39,284 bases of DNA, taken from the IMG/VR virus record IMGVR_UViG_3300043449_000537, positions 1-39,284 of that record; one strand, 5' to 3'. The position numbers and the translations under genes were made by a program. Below, piece after piece: positions 4,013 through 30,520 of the stretch; positions within the stretch are counted from its first letter, which is position 1; each line of letters begins with the position of its first letter. The DNA comes from a virus. The notes under the pieces were generated by a model that saw nothing but the letters and a program-made list of their open reading frames with translations, did no database searches and was not told the origin of the DNA.

Positions 4013-4621
4013 TTAATTGAAAGAGAAGTCTATCTCTGGGATGTTATATTTAAACTGTATTGCTGCTCTTGGACCATTTGTATGTACATCATGTATCATT
4101 CCCCTAGGGATATAAACAACATCACCCTCTGATACATCAAATTCTACGTACCCGCCCGATTTATCATTAATATTAGATCCATCAAATGATCTTTTCTCAG
4201 ATGTATAAAATTTCCATTTAGTATTACCTATGCATTGCCAATAAAAGTTATCTGTCTCATCAAAATGTGGGTCAGATGGATCTTCTTTTGCAAAGTTTAT
4301 ATATGCAGATACAGCAATACCTCTATATGGTATTGCAGAGTTAAATATAGAAAAGAAATTATCAATCTGTGGGTACCACTCTGCCTTTGGCTCTACTACA
4401 TTTAAATAAAGAGGGCTTTTGAATAGCACACCTCTAATGAATCTTTCTCTGTATGGATTGCTTGGAACAACAGCAATTCTTTTATTCCAGTACTGATCGT
4501 TGACATGATTAATAAAGTTGTTCCATGAAGGAGTTTCTGTGCAAATTGATTTAAATAAATAGGGCCTATTGTTTTCTTTGCAATCCTGCAAGATTATTTT
4601 TATTTGATCTATTGTATACAT
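4013..4621 (-). CDS. JmjC/cupin-like 2-oxoglutarate oxygenase
   Basis: 202 residues. A helical N-terminal part with a TPSWNNFINH segment precedes a cupin barrel. The likely Fe(II) ligands are the HxD in DPHFDETD (residues ~117-124) and a distal His in a GDVVYIPRGMIHDV motif (~167-180), followed by GPRAAIQFKY, where the Arg may bind 2-oxoglutarate. The fold is that of JmjC-type protein or RNA hydroxylases. It is a clear paralogue of the 15039-15710 gene. Substrate unknown. It follows the terminator of the 4659-5726 gene's message, or is read through it. Confidence 0.8.
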   Translation of the reverse strand: MYTIDQIKIILQDCKENNRPYLFKSICTETPSWNNFINHVNDQYWNKRIAVVPSNPYRERFIRGVLFKSPLYLNVVEPKAEWYPQIDNFFSIFNSAIPYRGIAVSAYINFAKEDPSDPHFDETDNFYWQCIGNTKWKFYTSEKRSFDGSNINDKSGGYVEFDVSEGDVVYIPRGMIHDVHTNGPRAAIQFKYNIPEIDFSFN

Positions 4622-4651
4622 AGTAAAACGGCTGGGGATTTCTCCCCAGCC
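4622..4651 (-). terminator. Rho-independent terminator
   Basis: A perfect 8-bp stem, GGCTGGGG/CCCCAGCC (4630-4637 with 4644-4651) and six-base loop, followed on the minus strand by a GTTTTACT tail. It comes right after the stop of the secreted Ig-like protein gene. Confidence 0.85.
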
Positions 4652-4658
4652 ATCCTGA

Positions 4659-5726
4659 TTACTTCTTTAATGCAATCTTCAACTTAGGGAATTTCTTGTT
4701 CCACTTAGTTGCAAGGGCGTTGTATTCTGCCTTGTACTTTGCTGATGATGTCGCAATAGCAAGGTCCGATGCTGCCTTTGCATCTGCAAGAGCCTTATCT
4801 GCTGCAACCTTATCTGCTGCACGTCCAGCTTTTTCTGCTGCAAGAACATTTGCTGCTGCCTGTGCATCTAGTGCACGACCAGCCTTCTCTGCTGCAAGCT
4901 GTGCAGTTAGTGTTGCAACTGTTCCATTAAGATCAGATACGCTAAATGCTGCCTGTGCTGCCTTTGTTGGGGCTGCAAGTCCAGCGACTGTTGCTGCTGA
5001 TGTCGCACCTGTAACAACAACTGTTACTGTGCCTGCAACGCCAACTGCAAGTGATGCAGTCTTTGAGCCAGCAACTAGGGTTGTGTCTGCAGTTGCTTCT
5101 GCAGTTGTTGATGTTACCAATGTCTTTGTAATTGTTCCATCTGAAAATGTTGATCCAAGTACTGTAGCGGTAATTGTTTCGCCTGTAAGAATTGGATTAC
5201 CGAATACATCTGTAGCAGATACAGTTACTGTTGGGATTGTTCCAACTGCTGATGCTGCTGGGACTGCAACTGCAACATTTGATGCTGCTCCTGCTGTTCC
5301 CTTGATGTATACGACTGTTGAATATCCGCCGTTTGTGATTGTTACAGTTCCGACCTTTACACTTGTTGTGTATGCGTAAACTGTAATTGCTGTACCTGCT
5401 GATGTAACAGATAGTGTTGATACACCTGACGTAATTGTCTTAGGTGCATCTGTTGTGTGCAAAGCAGTTACAAGCTTAATTGTATCTGATGCAACAAATG
5501 ACACAACTGTTGCTGTGTCTGCAGTTGCTGCTAGTGCTACAGAAGTTCCAGACGTGATCTGGTTTGCTGATGGCACTGCAACTGTTGCAGGCGCTGCAGA
5601 TGTTGTAGCGTTATTTACTGTTGCTACCGTAACGGCTAGTGGTGCTGCCGAAACAGGTGCTACAGAAACGCTGATGATTGCTAGAGCTGCAGCAGTAACA
5701 ATCGATAGTTTCTTAAATGACTTCAT
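4659..5726 (-). CDS. Secreted Ig-like surface protein
   Basis: 355 residues. A signal peptide covers residues 1-28 (Lys-rich start, hydrophobic core, Ala cleavage site after VSA). Residues ~30-270 are Val/Thr/Ala-rich beta repeats with a VTVSATDVFGNPI motif typical of bacterial Ig-like domains. Residues ~275-335 form an Ala/Lys coiled coil with repeated LAAEKAGRA words, ending in a basic KWNKKFPKLKIALKK tail. Base composition is less AT-rich than its neighbours. AAGGAG precedes the ATG. It may be a host-derived secreted or wall-associated protein, or a virion decoration. A strong terminator follows. Confidence 0.75.
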   Translation of the reverse strand: MKSFKKLSIVTAAALAIISVSVAPVSAAPLAVTVATVNNATTSAAPATVAVPSANQITSGTSVALAATADTATVVSFVASDTIKLVTALHTTDAPKTITSGVSTLSVTSAGTAITVYAYTTSVKVGTVTITNGGYSTVVYIKGTAGAASNVAVAVPAASAVGTIPTVTVSATDVFGNPILTGETITATVLGSTFSDGTITKTLVTSTTAEATADTTLVAGSKTASLAVGVAGTVTVVVTGATSAATVAGLAAPTKAAQAAFSVSDLNGTVATLTAQLAAEKAGRALDAQAAANVLAAEKAGRAADKVAADKALADAKAASDLAIATSSAKYKAEYNALATKWNKKFPKLKIALKK

Positions 5727-5773
5727 TTAATTTATTCTCCTTATTTCCTCTGTACTTTAAATAGCACAGAAAT

Positions 5774-9333: not shown

Positions 9334-10086
9334 TTAGTTTACCTTAATCCATTTCATATATTTATTTCTTTCTACTCTTTGTCTCAATTGTTCTTTCTCT
9401 TTCCACTCTTCAGGGTCCCACTTTTCTTTCTCTAAAAGATAGTCTGGGTCGCCATCATATCTGTAGTGCCAAAATGATCTTACTATGTACTTATCTCCAT
9501 CAATAACATTTTTAACCCCATGGTAATATGGTGCTCCAGAAGGGAAGACTATGATGTCTCCTGCTTTTGCCTTGTATGAGATTATATCCTCACTTGGCTC
9601 AACCTGGAACATAACTTCTCCACCTTCATAGTTATCATTAATGTATAGGTTTGCAGTTATTCCATGCTTGATACCTGGCATTTGTGAACGCTCTTGTTGA
9701 TAATCTGTGTGGAATGGCAAAATCAGTCCAGTATACTTTACCTTCTTTGGGAAATACTTACAAAGCTGTGGATCAGACGAATGCCAATTTGGTAGGTCTA
9801 CACTGTTTCTTTTTATATAATCGGAAGTAATATCTTTAAATATTTTACTAAACTCTGAACTTACGTAAGCTTTATTTTCATCTGACTCTTGAGTTTCTGT
9901 ATTAAAGCCATGTGGGTCTCCAGAGTAAGACTGAGTCATAAGTGTTGTGTAATGACCGAAGCCTCCCCAAGGCTTCCATAAATCTTGATTTACTGCTAAA
10001 ACATTTTGCATAAACTCCGAATAGTTTGGTATTGCATTATGATATACATCTATCTTATCATGCAATGTTGTTATATCAAATTTCAT
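9334..10086 (-). CDS. 2-oxoglutarate/Fe(II) oxygenase, prolyl hydroxylase-like
   Basis: 250 residues. A double-stranded beta helix with HxD in LPFHTDYQQ (residues ~133-141), a YINDNYEGGEVMF strand, a GDIIVFPSGAPYYHGV motif with the distal His, and a following Arg (YIVRSFWHY) that would bind the 2-oxoglutarate carboxylate. This is the complete facial triad of P4H-type enzymes. Resembles the 29549-30520 protein in the core. The substrate could be protein side chains or modified nucleobases; nothing in the sequence decides. Confidence 0.88.
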   Translation of the reverse strand: MKFDITTLHDKIDVYHNAIPNYSEFMQNVLAVNQDLWKPWGGFGHYTTLMTQSYSGDPHGFNTETQESDENKAYVSSEFSKIFKDITSDYIKRNSVDLPNWHSSDPQLCKYFPKKVKYTGLILPFHTDYQQERSQMPGIKHGITANLYINDNYEGGEVMFQVEPSEDIISYKAKAGDIIVFPSGAPYYHGVKNVIDGDKYIVRSFWHYRYDGDPDYLLEKEKWDPEEWKEKEQLRQRVERNKYMKWIKVN

Positions 10087-10400
10087 TTCCTACTACCCCC
10101 TGGCTTTCCCTCAAGCTCAACTCTAACACCGTAGGACTCTAGTATATTCTTAACCATTTCAACATACTCTATGACCTGCATTCTAATTGATCCATCGTAC
10201 TGTGCAAAGTTATCTTCATACAATCTAATTGCTAAGAAATCAGGATACTTAACAATATCCATTTGAAGACTGTTTACAGGCTTTCTTAATTCACGGATCT
10301 TAGCAGCCATCTGCTTATTATAAAATACTGGCTTATTTGGCTCACCAGTCCACTGATTAATACCATTTTTAAAATGATCTTTATTCTTATCAATAAACAT
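10083..10400 (-). CDS. Hypothetical protein, 105 aa
   Basis: A charged mixed alpha/beta protein with a MDIVKYPDFLAIRLYEDNF segment. ATGA overlap with the oxygenase that follows suggests coupled translation, and possibly a shared complex. No family recognised. Confidence 0.7.
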   Translation of the reverse strand: MFIDKNKDHFKNGINQWTGEPNKPVFYNKQMAAKIRELRKPVNSLQMDIVKYPDFLAIRLYEDNFAQYDGSIRMQVIEYVEMVKNILESYGVRVELEGKPGGSRK

Positions 10401-10701
10401 GCTTTTCCTTTATTTGCTTCCAAACATCTTTTGTTTTGTGTGCGTTTCTTGATTTGTCTGGAAGCCCTGAGCTAAGATATACTCCGCCCCAAACACCATA
10501 ATCATTATTAAATTTTCCTTCATCATAACAAATTTTAATTACTGGACAAGAAAGACATGCCTGATCAATGTTTTTTGCAACATTAATATCTGATTCATAT
10601 TTATCAAAGAAAAGGTTTGTATCCATACCAAGGCATAATGCTAGATCATACCAGTTTGCGTTATCTTTATCTATCCCTAAACTATCTAAAATATCTGACA
10701 T
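10390..10701 (-). CDS. whiB: WhiB-like Fe-S transcription factor
   Basis: 103 residues from the ATG at 10701. Four conserved Cys (23, 49, 52 and 58) in the pattern C...CLSCPVIKIC would bind a [4Fe-4S] cluster, and GVWGG (residues 69-73) is the family's turn. A basic tail follows that could contact DNA. WhiB proteins exist almost only in Actinobacteria and their phages, and act by binding the host sigma factor. The start inside the end of the previous gene (20-base overlap) was chosen because the Wbl domain begins soon after it. Confidence 0.92.
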   Translation of the reverse strand: MSDILDSLGIDKDNANWYDLALCLGMDTNLFFDKYESDINVAKNIDQACLSCPVIKICYDEGKFNNDYGVWGGVYLSSGLPDKSRNAHKTKDVWKQIKEKHVY

Positions 10702-10858
10702 ATTTTTTTGGCAATTCCCAGATTCCTTCACGGCTGACAGAAATCTTTTCTGCCTTACCCCAAGCATCTTTCCTATACATTCCTTTTACGTCAGTATAGC
10801 CGCCACTATCTTTTTTCCAGATTACAAGGTCATAGTTATTCCAGAATGACTCCTGCAT
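10682..10858 (-). CDS. Hypothetical protein, 58 aa
   Basis: A basic, aromatic-rich protein with a VIWKKDSGGYTDVKGMYRKD segment, likely a small beta sheet. The ATG at 10858 lacks a clear ribosome site; a TTG about 19 codons upstream, just past the tRNA-Leu gene, is an alternative start. No family recognised. Confidence 0.55.
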   Translation of the reverse strand: MQESFWNNYDLVIWKKDSGGYTDVKGMYRKDAWGKAEKISVSREGIWELPKKYVRYFR

Positions 10859-14407: not shown

Positions 14408-14454
14408 TATAATCTTTCTATTAAGTAGCCCTAGCTAAAGGCACTAGTATATTG

Positions 14455-14460
14455 TACAAT
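14455..14460 (+). promoter_or_regulatory. Leaderless -10 box on the plus strand
   Basis: TACAAT exactly six bases before the ATG at 14467; it is part of the palindrome ATTGTACAAT. The -35 region is weak. Confidence 0.55.
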
Positions 14461-14466
14461 AGAAGT

Positions 14467-15054
14467 ATGGAAAAAGTCAATGTAGATAAGTATGTAATTA
14501 TGATCAAAGACATAATAGATCAAGATGAAGCCGATTTCTTAATCAATATGGCAAAGGGTGCTTCTGATGAAGAATGGGATGCCTATAGAAAAAGCTTAGG
14601 TAAAGATGCTAACTCTGTAAATGCCGCATATGGAGACTGGACAAAGCAAATGCTTTGGCTTGAGCTTAACCCACATCTATTTGAGAAGGCTCAAGAACTT
14701 GTTGAATCTATTAACAGAAGATCTATACACCTAATAAATGATCATTATCAAACTGACTATACACTTGATCCCCTATACAATATTTATAAATTTAGAGAAG
14801 GTGACTTTATGAAAGAGCACCATGACTCTGGCCTATCCCCAGATATAAAGCTTGGAGCAGTTATTTATTTAAACGATGATTTTGATGGCGGAGAAATTTA
14901 TTATCCAAAGGCTAATTTAGAGATAAAGCCTGTTGCAAGATCGCTAGTTGTACACCCCGCTGGAATGATATATAGACATGGGGTAAAGGCAGTAAGTAAC
15001 GGTGAAAGATTTAGCTTAGCTGGATTTGCTAGACTTAATCATTCCCAATCGTAG
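14467..15054 (+). CDS. 2-oxoglutarate/Fe(II) oxygenase (P4H type), only plus-strand gene
   Basis: 195 residues from ATG 14467 (an upstream TTG at 14452 overlaps the -10 box, so it was rejected). Fe ligands: HxD in MKEHHDSG (residues ~117-124) and the His in MIYRHGVKAV (residues ~173-182); Arg in GERFSLAGF would bind 2-oxoglutarate. A VIYLNDDFDGGEIYYP motif marks prolyl-4-hydroxylase-like enzymes. It closely resembles the 25899-26477 protein. Its end overlaps the convergent 15039-15710 gene by 16 bases. The opposite orientation may let it be expressed separately from the main transcript. Confidence 0.88.
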   Translation: MEKVNVDKYVIMIKDIIDQDEADFLINMAKGASDEEWDAYRKSLGKDANSVNAAYGDWTKQMLWLELNPHLFEKAQELVESINRRSIHLINDHYQTDYTLDPLYNIYKFREGDFMKEHHDSGLSPDIKLGAVIYLNDDFDGGEIYYPKANLEIKPVARSLVVHPAGMIYRHGVKAVSNGERFSLAGFARLNHSQS

Positions 15055-15710
15055 CCTTCTGGCATTATAAATGGTCTCTTTGTATGCATTCCCTTTTCAT
15101 GTAGCTCTTTAGGTCTATACATACTGTTCTCGCTATCTTTAAACTGATACGATAACACTATTCCCGCCCTTGGTCCGCTGTAATTAACAGCATGCTGTAC
15201 TCCTGCTGGGATTACTATTACATCTCCAGGCTCCATATTATAAACTTGAGATGGTGTCTCATTAGCAGAGTCTAGTCTTGTCTCCCAAACTGTAGTGCCT
15301 TGACATTGCCAGTGCACGTTAACCCAATCATCTGAGTGTGTTGGTACATTTGGCTCACCAGAAGAGAAGTTTATGAATGACGTACCTCCCCAAGCATTTT
15401 CTTCATATACAATATCAAAAAAGTTTTTAAAATCTACAACTTCAGGAAAGAAATTTCTAGACTTGTTTGGCTCATTAATTACATCACGAGTTTGATAATA
15501 AAAATCATGCTTTCTTAATACGCCATTAAACACAGTGTATTTAGGATCAGCGTTCATAAGCTTTATCGCAGGGCCCTTATTTAACTGATAGTCAAGATGG
15601 TTTAAAAATTGATCCCAGCTTGGGGCTGAGGGAAAAAGATTTTTAAAGAATGCTGGATTTTTATTTGCTGTAGCATCTTCTATTATCTTTTTTGCCTCAG
15701 TTAACTTCAT
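15039..15710 (-). CDS. JmjC/cupin-like 2-oxoglutarate oxygenase
   Basis: 223 residues; paralogue of the 4013-4621 protein (shared PSW-x-x-F-hydrophobic-NH segment and GPRAGIVLSY end). The Fe ligands are HSDD (residue ~125) in a VPTHSDDWVNVHWQC segment and a distal His in GDVIVIPAGVQHAV. The C-terminus is extended by ~30 residues. It probably hydroxylates a protein or a small molecule; substrate unknown. It lies between a thermonuclease and a convergent oxygenase gene. Confidence 0.8.
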   Translation of the reverse strand: MKLTEAKKIIEDATANKNPAFFKNLFPSAPSWDQFLNHLDYQLNKGPAIKLMNADPKYTVFNGVLRKHDFYYQTRDVINEPNKSRNFFPEVVDFKNFFDIVYEENAWGGTSFINFSSGEPNVPTHSDDWVNVHWQCQGTTVWETRLDSANETPSQVYNMEPGDVIVIPAGVQHAVNYSGPRAGIVLSYQFKDSENSMYRPKELHEKGMHTKRPFIMPEGYDWE

Positions 15711-17676: not shown

Positions 17677-18189
17677 TTATGCTGAAAGGATCTTGGATAA
17701 AGCATTAATTGTTGCTGCAATTCTTCCGATATCACGCAACTGCTCTACTGAATATCCTTCTTCTTTTAGGGTTTCATAATGCGCTTTAACGCAAAAATGA
17801 CATTTACCTATAACGGATGACGCCAATGAATAGGCCTCAAACTTTGCCTTTGTTGTACCGCCATGGGATGCAATTGCATTCATTCTAAGCTGTGCTGGTA
17901 ATCCCTTTAGGTTAGGGTCATCAGCCATCTCAATAAATGGATACCAAACATTGTTCTGCGCCATGATTGAGCCTGCTGTCAAGGCTGCATTCTTTTCTAC
18001 TTCATCTGTTGCGCTTGCAACAATAAAAGTTAAAAGTTTAGCATTACCAGTTGCAAATGCAGCAGCAATAGAAAGGTATGTAGCATGCTCAGGATCAATA
18101 GTTGATCTATTAATAACTGCATCAAGATTTAGCTTGATATCCTTAGCATACTCTGGAAGAGAATCTTTAAGCTGGTCTACCCATGTCAT
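17677..18189 (-). CDS. ahpD: AhpD-like alkylhydroperoxidase
   Basis: 170 residues, all-helical carboxymuconolactone decarboxylase fold. The active site is GKCHFCVKAH: Cys130, Cys133 and His137, the E-x-C-x2-C-x3-H-type relay of AhpD. In mycobacteria AhpD reduces AhpC using lipoamide-linked enzymes. Here its ATG overlaps the AhpC stop (TAATG), so both are made together. Finding this pair in a phage suggests protection from peroxide during infection. Confidence 0.93.
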   Translation of the reverse strand: MTWVDQLKDSLPEYAKDIKLNLDAVINRSTIDPEHATYLSIAAAFATGNAKLLTFIVASATDEVEKNAALTAGSIMAQNNVWYPFIEMADDPNLKGLPAQLRMNAIASHGGTTKAKFEAYSLASSVIGKCHFCVKAHYETLKEEGYSVEQLRDIGRIAATINALSKILSA

Positions 18190-18725
18190 TAAAGAGTTTC
18201 TCCGCCCAAAGATCTATTACATGCACACAGCTCACCTGTTTGTAGTGCATCAAGTACACGCAATGTTTCGTCTGGATTTCTTCCTACATCTAGATTGTTT
18301 ACCGTTACATGCTGAATAATGTTATCTGGATCAACAATAAATGTTGCACGATATGTTACACCAGAAGGGTGGTGGACGCCGAGGTCGCTAGCAAGCTGGT
18401 GCCCTGTATCAGCAAATGACCATGAGTTGGTCTTCTTCAAATCTTCATGTGCATTACGCCATGCAATCTTGCAAAACTCATTGTCTACTGAGCCAACCAT
18501 TAGCACTGCATCACGATCATTGAAATCATTTACTAATGCATCATAAGCAACAATTTCTGTTGGACATACGAATGTAAAGTCCTTTGGATAAAACGCAATA
18601 ATCTTCCATTTGCCTGGAAAAGAATCTTGATTAATTAGTTCAAAAGAGGAATCGTCATAAGATAATGCCCCAGGTTTAACTCCAGTAACTGCAAAGTTAC
18701 CGAGCTTGTCTCCTACTGTTTTCAT
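18189..18725 (-). CDS. ahpC: AhpC-type 2-Cys peroxiredoxin
   Basis: 178 residues. The peroxidatic Cys54 lies in AFYPKDFTFVCPTE, with Pro, Thr and a later Arg (YRATFIVD) forming the active site; the resolving Cys is Cys167 or Cys169 in GELCACN. It reduces H2O2 and organic peroxides; AhpD (next gene) or thioredoxin (5953-6255) would recycle it. AAGGAG precedes the ATG. Shorter than E. coli AhpC (187) and similar to actinobacterial forms. Confidence 0.95.
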   Translation of the reverse strand: MKTVGDKLGNFAVTGVKPGALSYDDSSFELINQDSFPGKWKIIAFYPKDFTFVCPTEIVAYDALVNDFNDRDAVLMVGSVDNEFCKIAWRNAHEDLKKTNSWSFADTGHQLASDLGVHHPSGVTYRATFIVDPDNIIQHVTVNNLDVGRNPDETLRVLDALQTGELCACNRSLGGETL

Positions 18726-19540: not shown

Positions 19541-19569
19541 ATTATAGTATTAAATTGTAGTTTTGTCTA
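19541..19569 (-). promoter_or_regulatory. Promoter for the tRNA-Arg to tRNA-Leu cluster
   Basis: TAGACA (19569-19564), 17-base spacer, TATAAT (19546-19541) on the minus strand, nine bases before tRNA-Arg. It overlaps the stop of the SGNH gene. It would drive the five following tRNAs and RNA elements, and perhaps ahpC-ahpD. Confidence 0.75.
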
Positions 19570-20472
19570 GTATATTTTTAATAAATCTGCATAATGTGCG
19601 TGTGCATGAGATCCCATGTGCTCTTGAGGATCATCTCCTACATTAAAAAATCTTTGGTCTAAATCTTTAATTTTTTGATGACAATTTAAATAATCAATAT
19701 TATTATCCGCTATGCTACATACATAGCTGTCAAAGCCATAATCGTACCTTTTAAAATGAGAGTTTAATTCATTATGCCACGTAGCCCATTTAAAATCTAT
19801 ACCTGCCGCATTACAGTATGCTTCCATGTGCTTGATTGCAATTAGGTTAGACCTGAAAGACATTGCTGTAGGCATAATTTTTTCTACAGCTACTGGCATC
19901 TTTTCAAACTTAAGCATTGATCTGTCTGGATCGGATACCGTATTGATAAAATCTCCTACATTGCCTCTTGAGTTTTGAATAAAAACATTTTCATTAGAAG
20001 CTTTTATAAACTTAAATCTCAAGAAGTCTGGTACTAAAAACCTAATGTGTTTTGGATGACCAAACAAATCAAAATACTTAAATGCATCTTCCACCATAGC
20101 TATAGTGCTGTTACCAGGATATGCTAGATTGGAGTATGACATATTGTTTTTGCTTGCTAGCATGCTTGGCCAAGAGAGGCGCTCTGGGACTCCTATACCG
20201 AATGTCTGTGAACATCCAGAAACTAGTAGGTCAGCTTTATCAAGCTCTGGGCCACGATACCCAAATGAATTAACAGTATAGTCAACATTAAATTTACTTT
20301 TGTAAGTAAATTTCTTTTGTCTAACTCCCAAAGAAAGCTCTTCGACCATGTTTTGCTTTCTATGCTGATCATTAATTAAATTGTCATAAAGAAAGCTTTC
20401 TCCGTTGTCACCAGTAACAACTCCAAAAAAATCAAGAGGGTACTCTGACTTGTTCCACACTAGTCTTTTCAT
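19567..20472 (-). CDS. SGNH-like hydrolase/transferase
   Basis: 301 residues. Block I is LLVSGCSQTFGIGVP (nucleophile Ser ~88), preceded by NSFGYRGPE; a PGNS motif is near residue 119; the C-terminal MGSHAHAHYADL holds the block V His. SGNH proteins act as esterases or acyltransferases. It is a paralogue of the 22844-23881 protein (shared N-x2-G-(Y/F)-R-x-P-E, SGCS-x-T and GSH-x-H-x-HY segments). GGAG precedes the ATG. The classic block I Asp is replaced by Cys (GCS instead of GDS), as in some phage members. Confidence 0.7.
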   Translation of the reverse strand: MKRLVWNKSEYPLDFFGVVTGDNGESFLYDNLINDQHRKQNMVEELSLGVRQKKFTYKSKFNVDYTVNSFGYRGPELDKADLLVSGCSQTFGIGVPERLSWPSMLASKNNMSYSNLAYPGNSTIAMVEDAFKYFDLFGHPKHIRFLVPDFLRFKFIKASNENVFIQNSRGNVGDFINTVSDPDRSMLKFEKMPVAVEKIMPTAMSFRSNLIAIKHMEAYCNAAGIDFKWATWHNELNSHFKRYDYGFDSYVCSIADNNIDYLNCHQKIKDLDQRFFNVGDDPQEHMGSHAHAHYADLLKIY

Positions 20473-20485
20473 ATCTGCTCCATTG

Positions 20486-20559
20486 TGCGACAGCTCGGAC
20501 TTGAACCGAGGATTACCGAATTATGAGTTCGGGGCTTTAACCAACTAAGCTACTGTCGC
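20486..20559 (-). tRNA. tRNA with anticodon CAT (Met or Ile2)
   Basis: 74 bases. Acceptor GCGACAG/CTGTCGC, D-arm GCTTAGTTGGTTAAAGC, anticodon stem CCGAA/TTCGG with loop CTCATAA, T-arm CTCGG/CCGAG, discriminator A. It could be elongator Met, or Ile2 if C34 becomes lysidine. It stands alone with its own promoter between two SGNH genes. Confidence 0.92.
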
Positions 20560-20568
20560 CTAGTTAGT

Positions 20569-20597
20569 ATTATATCTATATCAATCGGAAACGTCAA
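20569..20597 (-). promoter_or_regulatory. Promoter for the tRNA at 20486-20559
   Basis: TTGACG (20597-20592), 17-base spacer, TATAAT (20574-20569) on the minus strand, nine bases before the tRNA 5' end. The -35 box lies in the end of the upstream SGNH gene. Confidence 0.85.
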
Positions 20598-21342
20598 TAG
20601 ATAAATCATTAGCAAGATAATTAACGATTGGCTCGTAATACTCTTGCTTCATGTGATCATTAAGCAAAATGTTTATTGGCTTCTTAGGCTGTTTATATGG
20701 CTCTATCATATCGTCACCTAGTATCTCTCTAGTATTGATTGGCTCTCTAAGTCCCCGCTCTAAGCATTGCTTTCTTAATTCTTCCACAAACAATAAGTGC
20801 TGCTCATGCCTTAATTCAAAATCAATATCTGGATCGCTTCTATTTTCTACCCAGCCGTTAGTTATAAAACAAATAAATTGTGGAAGAGGCTCCATAAAAA
20901 TAACCTCACACTTGTCAAACTTATTTAAAACATTATCTATATAAGTCTTGACAACTTCTGCAGCACCTAAATACCCAGGCAAATGCTTTTGCGGTAGCCA
21001 GTTTCTAATGTCTATATAGCCTAGCCAAGGCACAATTATGTTGCCTTCTTCATTCCAGGGATCAAGCAAAAATTTCTGAGTGCCGCTTGCAAAGTTTTCA
21101 AAATCAAAATTTAACGCTGACCTCCCAGGGTGGGAGGACATCCATAGCTTTAAGTCTTTATCCTGATGTATCTTTAGATAGTCTTTTAGCCATATATCTC
21201 TTCCTTCTTCTACTAAATGAGTTACATAGTTTTGCTCCGCATACTGGTACTGCAGCTTTCTATTTTTAAAAAAGAAAACGTCTGGTACGCAATTCCCAAT
21301 CTTAGATGTATGAGAGTCCCCAATTACTAATATCTTTTTCAT
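20581..21342 (-). CDS. SGNH-like protein with GDSH motif
   Basis: 253 residues. Block I is KKILVIGDSHTSKIG at the N-terminus (Ser9), with an SHPGRSALNFDFEN segment near 69, a VIFMEPLPQF strand, and a C-terminal LLNDHMKQEYY with the DH of block V. A second SGNH type, distinct from its two neighbours, and shorter. Possibly an acyl or sulfo-type transferase or an esterase on the same substrate as the carbamoyltransferase that precedes it by three bases. Confidence 0.7.
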   Translation of the reverse strand: MKKILVIGDSHTSKIGNCVPDVFFFKNRKLQYQYAEQNYVTHLVEEGRDIWLKDYLKIHQDKDLKLWMSSHPGRSALNFDFENFASGTQKFLLDPWNEEGNIIVPWLGYIDIRNWLPQKHLPGYLGAAEVVKTYIDNVLNKFDKCEVIFMEPLPQFICFITNGWVENRSDPDIDFELRHEQHLLFVEELRKQCLERGLREPINTREILGDDMIEPYKQPKKPINILLNDHMKQEYYEPIVNYLANDLSIDVSD

Positions 21343-21345
21343 ATT

Positions 21346-22770
21346 CTACCTAACTATCCTAGTGTTGTACATTCTTTCCCATGCTACCACATCAGACTCA
21401 TCATTAAGCAGTGGCTGCCCTTTTACATTCAAGCTGGTATTTAAAAGCATAGGTACTCCAGTCTGTAGATAAAATTTGTTTAGAACTCTCCAAAGACCCC
21501 TGTGCTGTTCCCTGTTAACTGTTTGAACTCTAGATGTACCATCTACGTGAACGACTGAAGGAACCTTGTCTGGCTGTAAACATCTTACAGTGTACTGCAT
21601 GTACGGACTTGCAAAATCCATATCAAACCATCTTGAAGCATGCTCTTCCATTACCACTGGGGCAAATGGTCTAAACATTTCTCTTTGCTTAATTGTATTA
21701 ACCTTATCTTTAATTGATGGATCTCTGGGGTCAGCAAGAATACTTCTATTGCCTAAAGCCCTTGGACCGTACTCTGCTCTTCCGTTTGCCACTGCAGCAA
21801 TTCCGTCTTTTAATACTAATTCTACAATTTTATCTATAGGGTATTCCCCGCCAAGGTCGTGGCCAAGGTATGGGCCTTCCCATTCAACGTGCTTTCCATA
21901 CAAGGCTGCGGCTGCTCCAAGCGAGCTTCCAGCGTCTCCTGGATTTGGCATGATCCAGACATCATCAAATATGCTCCATAGCATTGTATTGGCTGATGAG
22001 TTTAGAGCACATCCTCCCATGAAAACTAAATTATTTTTACCTGTAAGTTTCTTTGCCCATGTCATATACTCAAAAAGCCTACGCTCATAAACAAACTGAA
22101 CTGCTGCGGCAATATCAAACTTGTCTTCTTCTGATATTGGAGTGCCCCAATCTGATATTCCTTCGTGAAAGTTATACTTCTGGTAATTTATACTTGGGAA
22201 ATATGCTAGAACTTTTTGATAATATTTCCTGTAGTCACCGTATCCAGCCATGCCCATCAGAATATACTCTTCTTGATTTGGTCGCAAGCCTATAAGATCA
22301 GTAAATGCAGAATAAAATAGACCAAAACTAAGTGGATAGTTATCCTTATGGACCTGCTTTATTGATTCTCCTTCTCCCACCCATATAGTAGAAGTATTGT
22401 ATTCTCCAATGGCATCAAGCACTACAATTACAGCATCATAGAATTTACTTGTATAGTATCCTGCACAGGCATGAGAGTAGTGATGCTTGAATGATTTGCG
22501 TGGCGTATTCTTTATATCAAACCTTGGCTTCCAGTCACCGTAACCACCCTTTAAAAGCAGTCTGGAGGCCTTTAGAAGCGGTTTCTCGTAGTAGGCTATA
22601 GCATCAGGTCTACCATATGATAAAACATCACTAACTAAACTATCGTTTATATACCAATCATTTTTTATCTTGCTATATCTTTCAGCATGCCCAGCAAAAA
22701 TAACCTTGCCGTCTTCTATTAAAGACAAAGATGCATCATGGGAAGTTTCATTTATGCCTAATATTTTCAT
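21346..22770 (-). CDS. NodU/TobZ-family carbamoyltransferase
   Basis: 474 residues. The Kae1-like N-terminal domain begins KILGINETSHDASLSLIEDG and has the HHYSHACAGYY metal motif (residues ~95-105), a VVLDAIGE strand, an MGMAGYGDY loop and GGCALNSSANTML (residues ~255-267). The C-terminal domain has GRAEYGPRALGNRSILADPR. The family uses carbamoyl phosphate and ATP to carbamoylate hydroxyl groups of sugars or antibiotics. It is shorter than NodU or TobZ (about 560-600). The acceptor here could be a surface glycan, a nucleotide or DNA base, or a small molecule. Flanked on both sides by SGNH genes. Confidence 0.92.
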   Translation of the reverse strand: MKILGINETSHDASLSLIEDGKVIFAGHAERYSKIKNDWYINDSLVSDVLSYGRPDAIAYYEKPLLKASRLLLKGGYGDWKPRFDIKNTPRKSFKHHYSHACAGYYTSKFYDAVIVVLDAIGEYNTSTIWVGEGESIKQVHKDNYPLSFGLFYSAFTDLIGLRPNQEEYILMGMAGYGDYRKYYQKVLAYFPSINYQKYNFHEGISDWGTPISEEDKFDIAAAVQFVYERRLFEYMTWAKKLTGKNNLVFMGGCALNSSANTMLWSIFDDVWIMPNPGDAGSSLGAAAALYGKHVEWEGPYLGHDLGGEYPIDKIVELVLKDGIAAVANGRAEYGPRALGNRSILADPRDPSIKDKVNTIKQREMFRPFAPVVMEEHASRWFDMDFASPYMQYTVRCLQPDKVPSVVHVDGTSRVQTVNREQHRGLWRVLNKFYLQTGVPMLLNTSLNVKGQPLLNDESDVVAWERMYNTRIVR

Positions 22771-22843
22771 TAGTAGATAAATCTATTCTTTTTCTTTTTC
22801 TTAAACTTTTTTAAGAACTTATATATATAATATCTTAATGCTA

Positions 22844-23881
22844 TCAATTTAATCCCCCACCCATATGCTTTAAAAATGTTTCATAGTAATGAATATGTCT
22901 ATGCGATCCAAAATGTGCGTGGTGCATTCCAAGAGATCTATCGTTAGCTAGATGGAAAGTGTCTGAATTAGAATACTCTATATGACACTCTAATGGGGTC
23001 TTTCCATAGTCTCCCTCATGCACCGAAACATCAAAAATATTATCAACTCCAGAATTTGGATCGTACAGCCAGTTATTTGCATCCATGCTTATATACTCTT
23101 TAAAAAATTGATCATTTTTTACCTTATGAATAATACGTTCTGTTCCTGAATCCCAAGTGCTCCATATAAATTTTATACCTGTGGCTTCACAATATTGTGA
23201 TAGCATGTTTATAAATTGAGAAGAATACATGTGAGACATCTCCTGTGTTATAACTTCATCTGCTATCAATGGTCGCTTAAAATAATCCTTTGATGATTGG
23301 TTAGGGTCAATTGTGGCTGTGTTCTTAGACATAAAGTTTAAGTACTCATTTGTTCTCTCGTCTTGCCCACCATCCTTGGCCCACTCAAAAGTTTCTTTAT
23401 TGTAAGATCTATAGTAGACAGCCGTTCCAAGCATTTTGTTATTGTTATAAGATAGGAATCGATTAAAGTCTGGAAAAAGAGCCACTATTGTTTTAGGCTT
23501 TCCATACTCTTTAATGTATGCAAATATTTTTAAAACTTGTCCTGTCACGCTATCCCCATGCATTGCTACAGAAGAATACGATCCTCCAAGTTTAGATGCC
23601 AGCTTTTCGTGCCACAGATCCTCCAGGTCTAGCCCCCATCCGTAAGTAACTGAGCATCCTGAAAACAAAAAGTCTGGATTTTCAATAGGTTCTGGAGATC
23701 TAAATCCATTTCTATTCATAGATATATACTTATCATCTTTCAATATAGTCCATGGCATTTTTCTAAGCTTTGGGTTTAAATTATAATAAATGCTAGGTAT
23801 TAAAACATGGCTGTAATCTATATTATCTGTAGATTTACCATCAACAACTGCATCTGTCAGATCCTTATGCGGATATTTCAT
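22844..23881 (-). CDS. SGNH-like hydrolase/transferase
   Basis: 345 residues. FLFSGCSVTYGWGL (residues ~69-82) is block I, preceded by NRNGFRSPE; SVAMHGDSVTGQ is near 108; GSHRHIHYYETF near the end carries the block V His. Longer paralogue of the 19567-20472 protein. First gene of the modification cassette after the terminase; its ATG lies inside the preceding zinc gene's end. Likely acts on a common substrate with the carbamoyltransferase. Confidence 0.7.
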   Translation of the reverse strand: MKYPHKDLTDAVVDGKSTDNIDYSHVLIPSIYYNLNPKLRKMPWTILKDDKYISMNRNGFRSPEPIENPDFLFSGCSVTYGWGLDLEDLWHEKLASKLGGSYSSVAMHGDSVTGQVLKIFAYIKEYGKPKTIVALFPDFNRFLSYNNNKMLGTAVYYRSYNKETFEWAKDGGQDERTNEYLNFMSKNTATIDPNQSSKDYFKRPLIADEVITQEMSHMYSSQFINMLSQYCEATGIKFIWSTWDSGTERIIHKVKNDQFFKEYISMDANNWLYDPNSGVDNIFDVSVHEGDYGKTPLECHIEYSNSDTFHLANDRSLGMHHAHFGSHRHIHYYETFLKHMGGGLN

Positions 23882-24110
23882 TTTTTAATATTGACTCTTC
23901 TACTATTTGCTGAACATACTCAGAAAAATGTTTTCTTATTGCACCCATTGGTCTTGATCCAAATGAGTCCCATATTCTTTTGTATTCAATTATATTTTGA
24001 AGTGTTGTTGGGCATACAACTATTCCATTGTATGACTTCATTGTTGTTGGTAAAGGCACATGCTTGCTGCAACATTTGCATTGCTTTGCCATCTCTTGAT
24101 ATTCGCTCAT
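23865..24110 (-). CDS. Zinc-knuckle protein, 81 aa
   Basis: CKCC (residues 11-14) is followed by one later Cys near residue 33 (VVCPTT), so a full zinc site is not certain; the remainder is helical. ATGA overlap with the large terminase stop. No family recognised. Confidence 0.65.
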   Translation of the reverse strand: MSEYQEMAKQCKCCSKHVPLPTTMKSYNGIVVCPTTLQNIIEYKRIWDSFGSRPMGAIRKHFSEYVQQIVEESILKNEISA

Positions 24111-25909
24111 ATTATTTGCATCCTGTCCATTGCGTCTTTTAAATGTTCTGGCATTCTGGGTGCCCTAATCATATTATATCTTGATGTTTCCCCATCTGCA
24201 TCTGTTTTGAAATCATCATCATAGCTCATTGATTCATATGTATGAACATTAATCTCATTATTCATATCTGGTCTGGTTCTACTAATTGCGTTAAATATAG
24301 ATCCGCATACAGCATCAGCTAAGTCTTTCGATCCTTTTCTAGGGTGGTCAACTTTGTCTCTCATAATTTTAAGCTGAAGCAATTCATCAATAAGCAATGG
24401 AATGTGTGGCCCATTTAATCTTTCTTCTAAAACAACCATGGCCATATCATCGTAGTGCTTTTTTGCTACAGACAATATCTCTGTATTAATTCCATACTGT
24501 TTTAGCTGCTGCATCATGTCATGAGAGTTCCATCGGTCAAATGTACAAACACCAATATCAAACCCACGAGTTTTTAACGATAAGATATAATCTTTAACTT
24601 CTGTAAAGTCAACAGATTTGTCTGGTGTAGGAGTCCAGTATCTGACTGCGTCTACTACAACTATAGGTGCAGGCTGAGAGTATTCATTGGTTACTCTAAC
24701 ATTTACCCATCTATCAACATGCGCTAGAGCTACTGCACAATGGTCATGCTTTTGAGCTAAGTCTACGTGAATAAAATATTTTCTTTCAGCCTCTGGCTTA
24801 AACCATTCTTCTAGTCTTCCAAAATTATCTACAGCAAGGTGCGCTACATTGAATGCCTTTTCAACCTTTTCTCTTGATTTAAAGAATGCGTCAACCATCT
24901 CTGGTGGCATACATGCAAATCTTCCTAGAGCATCAAGCATGTCCTTATAAAATTCAACTCTAAAATCTTCTATCTTTTTAGTAGGATTTACTTCCCATGT
25001 AGGTCTTTTTAGGGCATATGTCTTTGGGTAAAGGTAAGATATGATGTGATCTTCTTCCCATTCAACTGTTATCTCGTTAGCCTCTATACCGTCTGGAAGG
25101 TCTTCATCCATCTTTAAAAGCTTTGATCTTACAATAGTTTCTTTTTCTCCAATTACTGACTCATAAAATTTTTGAATTGGATCGTTCTTAAATCTAGGGA
25201 ATGAAAGCAAAATAACTTTTCCAAAGTCAGGGAAACGTGACATAACTGATGCACGGTACATGTCATATATAGCGTCAGCTGTTTTTGCTTGGTCATGACC
25301 TGTAGTATTTTCTTGTGCAAATCCTGAGATCTCATCAAGAATAACTGCAATAACGTTATAGCCTTCCCAAGCCTCTCTTTGTGAGTGGCCAGAGTGGACT
25401 GTGATTGCTTTATCAAACTTCATTTCTGAAGCTTTTGCTTCATACTTTCCTATAAACCAGGGCGACCTGTCGACTCTTGTTTTGAATCCCTTAAAGAAAA
25501 CATTGCTTGCTTGCTGTGCGTTAATAGCAATGTTAAGGATATCAATTGAGTCCCCAGGAGGTTTGCCATAGTATGATGCTGGGTCTTTTAAACAAAGCAA
25601 AAGATAAACCATATAGGCAACAGAAATTGTAGAAGAGTAATCTTTTCCAGAACCCTTACCTAGCTGAGCAATTACTTCGTTACATGTTTGCTTAAATCTT
25701 CTCTTTCCCTCTTCTTCTCCATAAAGCTTTATAAGTGTTGACTCTTTATATATCTGAGAAGATTTTTCTATAAGCTCATACTGATGAACTGACAGAGGTG
25801 GTAGGCCTAAATAGTCTGGGCTTGTAACGAATGTTGGTAGATCTACTGGCTTTTCTTCAAACTCTTCACCATCTAGAATATCGATTAGGTCAGAAAAATC
25901 AAATGACAT
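24107..25909 (-). CDS. terL: Terminase large subunit
   Basis: 600 residues. The ATPase has a Walker A-like GKGSGKD (residues 84-90), Walker B VIAVILDE (to Glu193), and a SFPRFKNDP coupling segment. The RNase H-like nuclease has FIHVDLAQKHD (~385), VCTFDRW (~460) and KDLADAVCG (~550), with the metal-binding Asp residues. It packages phage DNA into proheads. The portal gene, usually next, is absent; a zinc protein and the SGNH cassette follow. Starts within the oxygenase end (11-base overlap). Confidence 0.93.
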   Translation of the reverse strand: MSFDFSDLIDILDGEEFEEKPVDLPTFVTSPDYLGLPPLSVHQYELIEKSSQIYKESTLIKLYGEEEGKRRFKQTCNEVIAQLGKGSGKDYSSTISVAYMVYLLLCLKDPASYYGKPPGDSIDILNIAINAQQASNVFFKGFKTRVDRSPWFIGKYEAKASEMKFDKAITVHSGHSQREAWEGYNVIAVILDEISGFAQENTTGHDQAKTADAIYDMYRASVMSRFPDFGKVILLSFPRFKNDPIQKFYESVIGEKETIVRSKLLKMDEDLPDGIEANEITVEWEEDHIISYLYPKTYALKRPTWEVNPTKKIEDFRVEFYKDMLDALGRFACMPPEMVDAFFKSREKVEKAFNVAHLAVDNFGRLEEWFKPEAERKYFIHVDLAQKHDHCAVALAHVDRWVNVRVTNEYSQPAPIVVVDAVRYWTPTPDKSVDFTEVKDYILSLKTRGFDIGVCTFDRWNSHDMMQQLKQYGINTEILSVAKKHYDDMAMVVLEERLNGPHIPLLIDELLQLKIMRDKVDHPRKGSKDLADAVCGSIFNAISRTRPDMNNEINVHTYESMSYDDDFKTDADGETSRYNMIRAPRMPEHLKDAMDRMQII

Positions 25910-26477
25910 TTTTAGCCACCTTAACCTCTTTTGCTACACTTGAAGTGTATGTATATCTTACGCCAGATGTGACTGGTCTTGTGCCATGTGTGCAATGTTT
26001 TTCTGCACTGTGTATCACAAGGTCACCCTTTGATGGCTTATACTCAACACCTTGTTCTGGATAGTATATCTCTCCACCACCAAAATCGTTTAAATAAACA
26101 ACAATTCCATACATAGGATATAGATCTAAATCAAACTCTTCGCCATCTTTGTATCTATTAAATCTATCTATCACATCTTCATACACATTTGCATCGTGAT
26201 GTGGCTCATATTTTGCACCTTCTGAAAGACGAATTACTTGACACCCCATTGCAACTTTTAGATCCTCTGGAACAATCTTTCTAATCTTGCCTGGAACTGG
26301 TCTTAAGTAATAAGTTTTTTCAGCAATATAAACTTGCTCATTAGAAGTCTTCCACTTATCTTCAGTTAAACTGCTAGCAAATTTAGTATAGTCATCACAC
26401 TCTTCTTCTGTTAAGAAGTTTTTATAGACGTAGATGTCTTTTCCAATTTCAATTAGGTCTGGATTATTAAACAACAT
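25899..26477 (-). CDS. 2-oxoglutarate/Fe(II) oxygenase between the terminase genes
   Basis: 192 residues from ATG 26477 (a TTG four codons upstream is possible). Fe ligands: HHD in YEPHHDANV (residues ~99-107) and His in KHCTHGTRPV (~167-176); Arg in SGVRYTYTSS binds 2-oxoglutarate. VVYLNDFGGGEIYYPEQG is the P4H signature. Close relative of the 14467-15054 protein. It overlaps both terminase genes, so it is made with them. An attractive guess is that it modifies a packaging or virion protein. Confidence 0.9.
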   Translation of the reverse strand: MLFNNPDLIEIGKDIYVYKNFLTEEECDDYTKFASSLTEDKWKTSNEQVYIAEKTYYLRPVPGKIRKIVPEDLKVAMGCQVIRLSEGAKYEPHHDANVYEDVIDRFNRYKDGEEFDLDLYPMYGIVVYLNDFGGGEIYYPEQGVEYKPSKGDLVIHSAEKHCTHGTRPVTSGVRYTYTSSVAKEVKVAKNVI

Positions 26478-27003
26478 CTGCTTCTTCAATGACTATTGAT
26501 TCTACTATGCCAGTGATTTGTGAGAGTCTTTTTGCAACATCCATCTTGCACTTTGGGCATGATGCAGTTACTTCCTTCAGTATACCAACCAGGACTTCTT
26601 GCTTTCTTTCTGTTTCCGCAATCTGTGATGCTATTTGTGTGTTCTCTAAGACACCTACAGATTGAAGCATTGCAATTCTTTTAGTCTCTATATCTGCTAT
26701 AAGCTTTAAAGCCCCCGCCTTTACATTTAGCTGGCCCTGAGTATCTGCATCTTCTACTGTTTTCCAAGCTTCTTTGATCAGCATAGCGTAGTGCTGGTCA
26801 GCTCCAGATATAGCTTCTCTAGCACGATCACGGATGTTGTTGTCATTATGGACTACAGATTTCCACTCTTCAAGAAACTCTAGGACTTCTTTCCTTGAGA
26901 ATCCTGTAAGGGTGGCAATTTGAGTTGCTGAATTACCCTTTAAAAGTTCTTCAACAACCCTATTCATGCGGTCAAAATGTACTGCTGGCTCTATTTCGCT
27001 CAT
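26467..27003 (-). CDS. terS: Probable terminase small subunit
   Basis: 178 residues. A helix-turn-helix is near residues 17-45 (NSATQIATLTGFSRKEVLEF), followed by long helices (residues ~55-140) suited to ring assembly, and a CPKC pair near 152 that may bind zinc. Position two genes before terL supports the call. TerS recognises the packaging site and loads TerL. Sequence alone is not diagnostic. The gene has a leaderless promoter. Confidence 0.72.
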   Translation of the reverse strand: MSEIEPAVHFDRMNRVVEELLKGNSATQIATLTGFSRKEVLEFLEEWKSVVHNDNNIRDRAREAISGADQHYAMLIKEAWKTVEDADTQGQLNVKAGALKLIADIETKRIAMLQSVGVLENTQIASQIAETERKQEVLVGILKEVTASCPKCKMDVAKRLSQITGIVESIVIEEADVV

Positions 27004-27009
27004 AGAACT

Positions 27010-28334: not shown

Positions 28335-29122
28335 ATTTTTGGCACCTCAAATAGCTCAATCTGAACTGTGCCTACTGGCGTGTCTTTACTGTAGCACTCC
28401 TTCTTAATTGGACAATAAGTGCATGGCATCTTGGACTTAGTTGAGCCAGCTGGTCTCATGGGGATGTCTCCATCCTTAAAGTTGTCATACACTTCCTGCA
28501 TCCATAAGAATGTGTCTTCAATTATTTTAGTATTCTTTTCATTCATTGAGATTGGTATAACAAGTATTTCTTGTGTATTCTTATTCTCATACAAAAAGAA
28601 ACCCTCTTTAGCATTCTTTAGCTTCATATACGTAAGAAGCTGTAACATATGGTTTGCAGAAGACTTCATTTCAGATTGTCTTGTATCCCAAACCTCTTGT
28701 TTAGCCGTCTTGATTTCACCAATTACGGTCTCGCCATCGTACTCCATAATTAAATCAATAAACCCACGAATTGGTGGGTACTCATTAATAATCTCTTCTT
28801 CTTCTGCTCTCCACTCAGGCATAGTAGAAATAAGCTTCTGAAGTCTTTCGTGGGCTTGAGTTCCTTGTGCCATATTAGCAACAGCAACAGCATCATTATC
28901 ATCAATAAATACTGCACCGCTAAATGCCATGTACCAGTACCTAGGGCAGTTTCCATGACCATAGCCGAGGGAGCTTGGGCTAAATGATTTCTTTGTCATG
29001 TTGCCGTCTGCTCTTTTAGTATTACGATACGCCTCATCAAGAAGATCAGCGAATCTTTCTGGATCAAAAAATTTACCAGTGTGTTTTTTAAACTTAAGGT
29101 TCTTTACAATGTCTCTAGCCAT
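28331..29122 (-). CDS. Cas4/RecB-like PD-(D/E)XK exonuclease
   Basis: 263 residues. A Cys at GNCPRYWYM (~58) and three at CTYCPIKKEC (~238-247) match the four-Cys Fe-S cluster of Cas4/AddB nucleases. The catalytic core has a PPIRGFIDLIMEYD segment (Asp), ETVIGEIKTAK (Glu-x-Lys) and a QLLTYMKL helix. It would resect DNA ends for RecA recombination. No CRISPR array or other Cas gene is in the window, so it is a phage recombination nuclease. Confidence 0.88.
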   Translation of the reverse strand: MARDIVKNLKFKKHTGKFFDPERFADLLDEAYRNTKRADGNMTKKSFSPSSLGYGHGNCPRYWYMAFSGAVFIDDNDAVAVANMAQGTQAHERLQKLISTMPEWRAEEEEIINEYPPIRGFIDLIMEYDGETVIGEIKTAKQEVWDTRQSEMKSSANHMLQLLTYMKLKNAKEGFFLYENKNTQEILVIPISMNEKNTKIIEDTFLWMQEVYDNFKDGDIPMRPAGSTKSKMPCTYCPIKKECYSKDTPVGTVQIELFEVPKI

Positions 29123-29461
29123 TTATGAGTTGTACCTAACGACATACTTAAGTGCATCTACAAGTTTGTCTATGGACTCCTTTACTGAATAGTAAACATT
29201 CTTCTTATTATTATTGACAGTCCCAGCCTTGTCCTTGGCAATTGTTGAATAGACTGAAGACATAACTGCAAACTTTGTTGACATAGCCTGAAGCTCCATG
29301 ATTAGCATAGGGGCTTTAGCAGAAGGAACATCTGGATTCATCAATAGCTTTACTACAATAGATAAAGCCCTATCTAGATGTTCATCTTGCATAAACTCAT
29401 GCAAATCATTAAACTCAGTGATATCACTGATTAACTCAAGAGTGTTCTTATCTTCCGCCAT
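29123..29461 (-). CDS. Hypothetical helical protein, 112 aa
   Basis: An all-helical protein with an acidic N-terminus and a KKNVYYSVKESIDKLVDALKY end. AAGGAT precedes the ATG. It abuts the exonuclease start (TAAATG), so it may be its partner. No family recognised. Confidence 0.7.
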   Translation of the reverse strand: MAEDKNTLELISDITEFNDLHEFMQDEHLDRALSIVVKLLMNPDVPSAKAPMLIMELQAMSTKFAVMSSVYSTIAKDKAGTVNNNKKNVYYSVKESIDKLVDALKYVVRYNS

Positions 29462-29552
29462 TTTTCATCCTTTTGTCTAATTTATCAATGAATAGTCCCA
29501 TAGGGTATCCAACACTGAATCCTACCATAAGTCCTAGAAGAAAGTAAATCAT
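29448..29552 (-). CDS. Single-TM microprotein, 34 aa
   Basis: One membrane helix (residues ~2-22) with two Gly-rich turns, then a basic tail (DKLDKRMKNGG). The ATG overlaps the oxygenase stop as ATGA, and the end overlaps the next gene by 14 bases. Likely translated by coupling; it is a membrane microprotein with unknown role. Confidence 0.6.
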   Translation of the reverse strand: MIYFLLGLMVGFSVGYPMGLFIDKLDKRMKNGGR

Positions 29553-30520
29553 CTCAATCTACCATCTACGTAGATGTGATTCTCCTTCGAGACTTCTACT
29601 TTTATAGCAGGGTTTACATCCTGCCATTCCGTTCCTTCAATTCTAACTTCACGATCATACATACCAGTGTCCACCTTCTTTTGAACATCTGCATCTACAA
29701 TCTTAAGCCATTCTTCTTCACCGTGCTCAGCAATTCCATCTGCCCACTCTTTTGAGCCTGGATAATCCCACTGAGCAAAAACTCTAACGAAGACCTTCTT
29801 GTTTCCGCCTGTTACTGCTTTTGCTGAGTGCCAGTAAGGTATGCCTGATGGGAAAACCGTTACGTCTCCTACTCCAGGCTTGTATGTAATTACCTTCGGG
29901 ATCTCATCAATTTCATTCAAGAACTCGACGTCTCCACCCTCATAATCATCGTTTACGTAGATTGTAATTGTGATAATTTGTTGAGCTCGTGGCTGTCCAA
30001 CTCTATGCTTATGTGCATCAGTATGGAATGTAATTGCAAGCTTCTTTTCTGGGTGAATATCATGTTTTAGGATTTCAATAACGGAGTAATGCATTCTTGT
30101 TGCACCCTGCTCATTAAGTTTCCAATTATCGATGTAGTCTGGCCAATATCCTGAATCAGACCACTCATCAATATAGTCCTTAAATACCACAGCAAATGTA
30201 TCATAAAGTTTTTGTCTAAAGTCATACAGAAACTCTATATCTTTATCTTCAATATTTGCAGGCTTTTGCTTAAAGTTAAAGAATGTTTTCTTTCCAAATG
30301 TGTGCCATGGAACCCATTCGTTTAAAGGAGATACATCTTCTTTTTCTTGAGGAAGAACTCCATGGTTATCTCCTCTTGTAGAAAGCTCCTCATGAGTTAT
30401 CTCAAACTGGCTGGTGTCATTCTCATAAAGGTCCATCAGATCATAGAACCTCTTTAGCTCATCCTTATCAAACATATCTCTATATATAACAACTTGCGGC
30501 ATTACCTGATACTTATTCAT
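29549..30520 (-). CDS. 2-oxoglutarate/Fe(II) oxygenase, long form
   Basis: 323 residues. HxD in ITFHTDAHKH (residues ~167-176), YVNDDYEGGDVEF strand, distal His in VFPSGIPYWHSAKAV, and Arg in KVFVRVFAQW. Related in the core to the 9334-10086 protein, with extensions of ~60 residues at each end. It sits in the recombination block, translated after a nuclease-like gene. Substrate unknown. Confidence 0.88.
   Translation of the reverse strand: MNKYQVMPQVVIYRDMFDKDELKRFYDLMDLYENDTSQFEITHEELSTRGDNHGVLPQEKEDVSPLNEWVPWHTFGKKTFFNFKQKPANIEDKDIEFLYDFRQKLYDTFAVVFKDYIDEWSDSGYWPDYIDNWKLNEQGATRMHYSVIEILKHDIHPEKKLAITFHTDAHKHRVGQPRAQQIITITIYVNDDYEGGDVEFLNEIDEIPKVITYKPGVGDVTVFPSGIPYWHSAKAVTGGNKKVFVRVFAQWDYPGSKEWADGIAEHGEEEWLKIVDADVQKKVDTGMYDREVRIEGTEWQDVNPAIKVEVSKENHIYVDGRLR

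Follow-up and report, generated by a model that had tools for sequence, protein, structure and literature searches.

What does a phage do with six Fe(II)/2-oxoglutarate (2OG) oxygenases? The question is raised by one whole record of IMG/VR (IMGVR_UViG_3300043449_000537), a linear 39,284-base fragment called the window here, in which a preliminary description made from sequence had noted six such genes (A–F) with apparently intact iron sites. In related contigs, we found tandem arrays of genes of the prolyl 4-hydroxylase (P4H) type directly after genes for tail proteins with repeats rich in Pro and Phe. The sequence evidence makes it probable that the array P4Hs act on these repeats. For the broader reading, in which the phage encodes hydroxylation, and possibly glycosylation, of virion repeat proteins and A–F take part, we see about even chances.

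Six oxygenase genes and their active sites

All six open reading frames (ORFs) were confirmed at the positions first reported, and Pfam matches and paralogy support their assignment as Fe(II)/2OG oxygenase genes.

4013..4621, minus strand: A, minimal JmjC-fold 2OG oxygenase, 202 amino acids (Pfam JmjC_2, E 1.2e-12)
9334..10086, minus strand: B, long P4H-type oxygenase, 250 amino acids (PF13640, E 2.9e-8)
14452..15054, plus strand: C, short P4H-type oxygenase, 200 amino acids (PF13640, E 3.1e-9)
15039..15710, minus strand: D, paralogue of A, 223 amino acids (BLASTP against A, E 7e-23)
25899..26489, minus strand: E, short P4H-type oxygenase, 196 amino acids (PF13640, E 3.9e-7)
29549..30520, minus strand: F, long P4H-type oxygenase, 323 amino acids, in the replication block (PF13640, E 3.3e-8)

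The earlier starts of C (14467) and E (26477) lie at ATGs inside ORFs that open with TTG at 14452 and 26489. C and D are convergent and overlap by 16 bases, and E sits between a small-terminase (TerS)-like gene and the large-terminase (TerL) gene, overlapping both. B, C, E, and F scored 31.4–38.1 bits for 2OG-FeII_Oxy_3 (PF13640; Pfam curated cut-off 27) and A scored 47.9 bits for JmjC_2 (cut-off 22). D scored 15.2 bits for JmjC_2, under the cut-off, and gave weak cupin/JmjC matches (E 0.003–0.017), and its alignment with A (29% identity over 198 residues) marks it as a clear divergent paralogue. Profiles built from A–F and Pfam scans revealed no seventh 2OG gene in the window. PHROG labels of "DNA endonuclease V" and "ferrochelatase" on B–F were set aside as annotations of mixed families, not of function. 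Among isolate phages, A had no match and E and F had only weak partial matches. Only six loci close to B were found.

Alignments placed an HxD motif and a distal His followed by a basic residue in every protein: H119, D121, H177, and R185 in A; H126, D128, H189, and K199/R203 in B; H123, D125, H176, and R186 in C; H125, D127, H173, and R181 in D; H97, D99, H168, and R178 in E; and H166, D168, H231, and K242/R246 in F. Loss of Fe ligands in alignment had been named in advance as one of the results that would refute the preliminary description; A–F keep all of theirs. Across 95 P4H homologues from related phages of this group, HxD..H plus Arg or Lys is kept in 88; four have HxE, one has neither the distal His nor the basic residue, and contig ends truncate two, leaving intact Fe ligands in 92 of the 93 complete sequences. 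The Arg expected later in each protein was found at its usual place in C and E, where the basic 2OG residue lies about 10 residues after the distal His. B and F align a Lys at this P4H 2OG-binding position (K199 and K242), followed four residues later by an Arg that does not vary, and in A and D the Arg is displaced to the last strand.

H119 and D121 do not vary within the A/D family, and H177 and R185 hardly do. At H+15, where FIH, MINA, and NO66 have a 2OG-binding Lys (which we take to be K214 in FIH and K194 in MINA, at HxD +13 to +15), the family has Thr, Val, or Ser; A and D themselves have Thr, with neither Lys nor Arg in that interval. Their conserved "PRA" Arg (R185 and R181) comes at distal His +8, where the last strand of the predicted fold starts, the place where other 2OG oxygenases hold a carboxylate-binding residue. 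A JmjC/cupin fold with HxD..H is indicated by the A/D alignment and, for A, by AlphaFold2 (AF2) modeling and Foldseek. With HxD..H kept, the 2OG Lys replaced, and an Arg on the last strand, A and D thus look like active, non-standard JmjC enzymes, a divergent JmjC-like family predicted to work like a JmjC hydroxylase.

The AF2 model of A (predicted local distance difference test, pLDDT, 88) had YxbC, NO66, MINA53, YcfD, and JMJD5 as Foldseek neighbors. It shares with them the double-stranded β-helix fold and HxD..H, whereas A and D differ from them in lacking the canonical 2OG Lys and the C-terminal domains and in having the last-strand Arg. The neighbors of the F model (pLDDT 92) were P3H1, PHD2, PolD, and the Pseudomonas putida P4H with EF-Tu. 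By sequence, C matched Bacillus anthracis P4H (BaP4H; 3itq, 5hv0; E 5e-5), its closest bacterial solved structure, and C and the array enzymes matched LH3, BaP4H, P3H1, and mimivirus L230. To judge from their sequences, A–F belong to protein-hydroxylase families of Fe(II)/2OG oxygenases and look catalytically competent.

P4H arrays beside repeat tail proteins

The six genes are an undercount. The nearest relative, the 97-kb contig G029, has 14 P4H-like and two JmjC genes, 16 in all, A–D included. It matches window 1–20744 at about 83–90% and window 38538–39284 at 94%; since the ends of G029 match the window, the two can be tiled into a single phage type of roughly 115 kb. Adding E and F to the 16 genes of G029 gives about 18, a sum over two near relatives and not over a single assembled genome, of which six is about one third. 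Elsewhere, G017 (113 kb) has 13 P4H-like gene models (two at contig ends) and one JmjC gene, G023 (86 kb) has 17 P4H-like genes, and G012 and G013 have none.

In five contigs (G029, G032, G016, G017, and G023), a tandem block of six to eight P4H genes lies between the tail-fiber genes and the portal gene, directly after a gene for a protein with Fn3 domains and (FF[S/A]PPG)n or FFPP repeats. Most of these repeat proteins end in a C-terminal, intein-like Hint domain, running from Cys to His-Asn. In G029, an Fn3-(FFSPPG)n-Hint protein (40935–42254) is followed by eight P4H genes and a DUF6065 gene, and a second tail protein (47848–50469) with the same repeat and Hint end adjoins a GlcNAc-transferase gene of family PF11397 (E 7e-41). 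In G023, a tail protein with long NTIATQ repeats and Hint (52839–55970) is followed by three P4H genes and a PF11397 transferase gene; this repeat is Asn/Thr-rich instead of PPG. G001 likewise encodes P4H and PF11397 enzymes together, a combination not found in the window. PF11397 includes the Skp1 Gnt1 enzyme, which acts on hydroxyproline. The repeat-Hint protein had no match among isolate phages.

DUF6065 (PF19541) and a second family of about 240 amino acids, "SNRP240", accompany the P4H arrays (L119–L198 and L375–L454; for example, G029:36247–36945 and 35529–36257) and may be helpers in the modification of peptides. SNRP240 is found next to a tryptophan-halogenase gene as well; neither it nor the 215-amino-acid "HDH" proteins had a Pfam match. 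In other relatives (L169:1128–2702; L171, L174, and L176), a Trp-halogenase-family gene (PF04820, E 6e-107) replaces the P4H genes and adjoins collagen-like tail proteins in the same module, possibly a halogenating variant of the cassette.

The association was reached independently from both sides. Sampling by portal relatives, chosen blind to repeats, gave 43 loci with enough upstream DNA. All 17 loci with five or six P4H genes encode a Pro/Phe-rich FFPP/FFxPPG repeat protein (16 of them above threshold, and L137 judged by eye), and none of the 26 loci with zero to two P4H genes had repeats over threshold; loci with two P4H genes, read by eye, show weaker TPFGF repeats. Sampling by the repeat, a DNA pattern for FFxPPGFFxPPGFF matched at least 120 stretches of IMG/VR and nothing in 84,980 prokaryote genomes. 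Among the matches listed, 61 of the 75 loci encoding the repeat hold a P4H gene; 51 have at least four genes downstream of the repeat gene, and in 48 of these a P4H gene is among those four (p 2e-26 against a 24% background drawn from other, P4H-rich contigs that are relatives) and in 46 a DUF6065 or SNRP240 gene is present. An exception, L445, has an A/D-family JmjC gene two genes downstream of the repeat protein. PF13640 genes are present in all 18 repeat contigs tested. Where a TerL match was found, its identity to the TerL of the window lies between 81% and 54%, and there are also large repeat contigs without a match, so that the repeat-P4H link crosses phage lineages.

In a tree, B has one tandem-array enzyme as its sister (support 98/87), with F in the next clade; a supported clade (96/98) that holds most array members includes both. 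The three pairs proposed at the outset are recovered by BLAST (A-D, 7e-23; B-F, 3e-23; C-E, 1e-13) as three kinds of protein, and the tree separates B from F. Judged from these sequences, B and F would come from the same P4H radiation as the array, and A, C, D, and E from separate lineages. A sister phage, G002 (TerL 86%), keeps all six genes, with F 94% identical. C–F are under purifying selection: compared with G002, synonymous sites are near saturation and non-synonymous changes are few, with dN/dS of 0.015 for F, 0.044 for C, 0.061 for D, and 0.10 for E. A and B have dN of 0.41 and 0.15 at saturated dS. A P4H gene occupies the TerS-TerL junction in 12 of 75 loci, and elsewhere the two genes mostly overlap by about 11–40 bases; by this comparison, E is an optional insert.

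Candidate substrates

The preliminary description had proposed a program of hydroxylation of proteins, nucleobases, or glycans. A program is supported, and a larger one than six genes implied; among these targets, the sequence evidence favors proteins, without naming the target of A–F, because the nearest solved relatives are collagen prolyl and lysyl hydroxylases and JmjC protein hydroxylases and the main block lies beside Pro-Pro-Gly tail proteins. Pro-Pro-Gly is the classic collagen substrate motif of prolyl 4-hydroxylase. The phage enzymes share HxD..H and an Arg or Lys at +10 with the B. anthracis and collagen prolyl 4-hydroxylases, but they are many divergent paralogues of predicted activity beside an (FFxPPG)n tail protein and not a Gly-X-Y collagen. 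In the Skp1 PhyA-Gnt1 system of Dictyostelium (PMC3515798), a prolyl hydroxylase and a PF11397 GlcNAc-transferase are likewise co-encoded, but there one proline is modified in protist cytosolic signaling, whereas the putative acceptor in the phage is a virion repeat protein.

From the P4H family, the motif, and the adjacency, we infer that an array of six to eight P4Hs would hydroxylate Pro, and perhaps other residues, in the C-terminal (FF[S/A]PPG)n or FFPP repeats. More tentatively, the Gnt1-family transferase may then add sugar to hydroxyproline, as on Skp1. The C-terminal Hint domain, itself evident in the proteins, may cleave itself or act in ligation, so cutting or joining the tail protein where the repeat ends, and A–F may extend hydroxylation to other phage proteins. 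Taken together, these steps would make up a widespread aquatic-phage system for hydroxylating and glycosylating collagen-like Pro-Pro-Gly/Phe-Phe tail repeats by means of the P4H array, DUF6065-type helpers, the GlcNAc-transferase, and a rod-trimming or rod-ligating Hint, with A–F acting on further virion proteins, a proposal whose chances we put slightly short of even. That A–F act on phage proteins, mostly those of the virion, is argued by analogy and is somewhat more doubtful.

Several points weigh against a system of this kind that includes A–F. Because the six genes are scattered, the argument for their own substrates is one of relationship and analogy; C and E lie on weakly placed branches apart from the array clade; and no PPG-repeat protein is encoded within the 39,284 bases of the window. 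P4H folds also occur in small-molecule enzymes, such as PolD, which F matched. The sampled loci are related, so that at 92% portal identity the 43 collapse to 10 clusters, four with array and repeat and six with neither, and the repeat-first background is P4H-rich. Support throughout comes from sequences and models.

Some of the same features would suit a role for A–F in modifying host proteins (ribosomal proteins, EF-Tu) and tuning translation in infection, independently of the array: the genes are scattered, with E and F in non-structural blocks, and the fold neighbors include the ribosomal oxygenases NO66, MINA53, and YcfD for A and the P. putida P4H with EF-Tu for F. These fold matches are broad, however (TM-scores 0.4–0.6, 11–19% identity), the dimerization and winged-helix regions found in ribosomal oxygenases are lacking in A (202 amino acids), the tree groups B and F with array enzymes, and E is missing from most relatives, and we consider a host-directed role unlikely. 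An action on nucleobases, surface glycans, lipids, or small molecules seems to us slightly less likely again. PF13640 is a broad superfamily, the profile of F matches PolD, and sugar-type genes (a carbamoyltransferase and SGNH-like genes) lie at window 19567–23881, but the closest sequences of solved structure are the protein hydroxylases named above and the constant neighbor of the array is a repeat protein. Nucleobase modification was rejected as a candidate, as no TET/JBP or AlkB family turned up in Pfam scans of the window.

Two further explanations concern gene number. T4-like cyanophages resemble the window phage in carrying several PF13640-type genes per genome, up to five, for which DNA repair or control of 2OG has been proposed (PMC3037559, Table 3); one or two per phage, as initially stated, is usual for many phages but is exceeded there. 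Consumption of 2OG, shifting host nitrogen and energy metabolism, might likewise account for the genes described here, but the cyanophage proposal depends on the cyanobacterial regulator NtcA, and about 18 divergent enzymes with conserved sites and fixed repeat neighbors would be a costly way to alter one metabolite, which makes this explanation improbable. About 18 genes also differs from five, and no virion-repeat role was proposed for the cyanophage enzymes; weak sequence relatives of one array P4H occur in 334 phage records, mostly of cyanophages. Slightly more improbable still is a selfish or hitch-hiking build-up of genes exchanged among phages, each of little function, which would fit the patchy distribution (0 to 17 per contig) and the insertion of E at the TerS-TerL junction but not the low dN/dS of C–F or the near-universal retention of Fe ligands. 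Hydroxylation of virion repeat proteins is our favored reading.

The phage and its significance

The window points to a piece of a freshwater actinobacterial phage genome. Its TerL is 63.5% identical to that of Streptomyces phage Gilson (Stanwilliamsviridae), and three genes bear on lineage and host.

24107..25909, minus strand: large terminase, lineage marker (63.5% identity to Gilson TerL)
26467..27003, minus strand: small-terminase-like gene upstream of E, its role taken from position (phrog_9507, E 1.5e-54, no annotated function)
10390..10767, minus strand: WhiB-like regulator, actinobacterial marker (Pfam WhiB, E 2e-9, and Cys pattern in the ORF)

Likeness to Stanwilliamsviridae such as Gilson and Muntaha extends to the portal (about 58%) and to the gene order of the replication block, and the WhiB-like gene indicates an actinobacterial host; with these, the phage has the marks of a Stanwilliamsviridae-like actinophage. 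Gilson differs from it in having no PF13640 and no JmjC_2 gene. WhiB is a marker in use for freshwater actinophages (PMC6802176).

Other genes of the window include a Cpn10-like (GroES) gene (834–1130) and a pair encoding an AhpC-type peroxiredoxin and a CMD/AhpD-like protein (17677–18725). The pair is also present in G002, G023, and G024 and is replaced in other relatives by a KatG-like gene (G017:95249–97291, G021:41225–43267); in either form it would be a peroxide defense carried by the phage. At 19567–23881, a carbamoyltransferase gene of NodU/TobZ type lies between genes for three SGNH-like proteins without Pfam matches, an arrangement suggestive of a block for modifying glycans or small molecules.

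For more than 10 years, phage 2OG oxygenases have been recognized as auxiliary genes with no substrate assigned, and several per phage were already known in cyanophages; the tie to tail repeats may be new, as a literature search limited to open-licence papers found none linking phage P4H to tail repeats. The repeat-protein neighbors offer a concrete, testable substrate. If the proposal is true, biotechnology would gain many small hydroxylases that come with their own substrates, and the finding would run counter to a paper of 2012 on collagens from bacteria and phages, according to which the prolyl hydroxylases required are missing from bacteria and viruses (PMC3368898). Phages would then produce virion parts rich in hydroxyproline, and perhaps glycosylated, in the manner of collagens or plant extensins.

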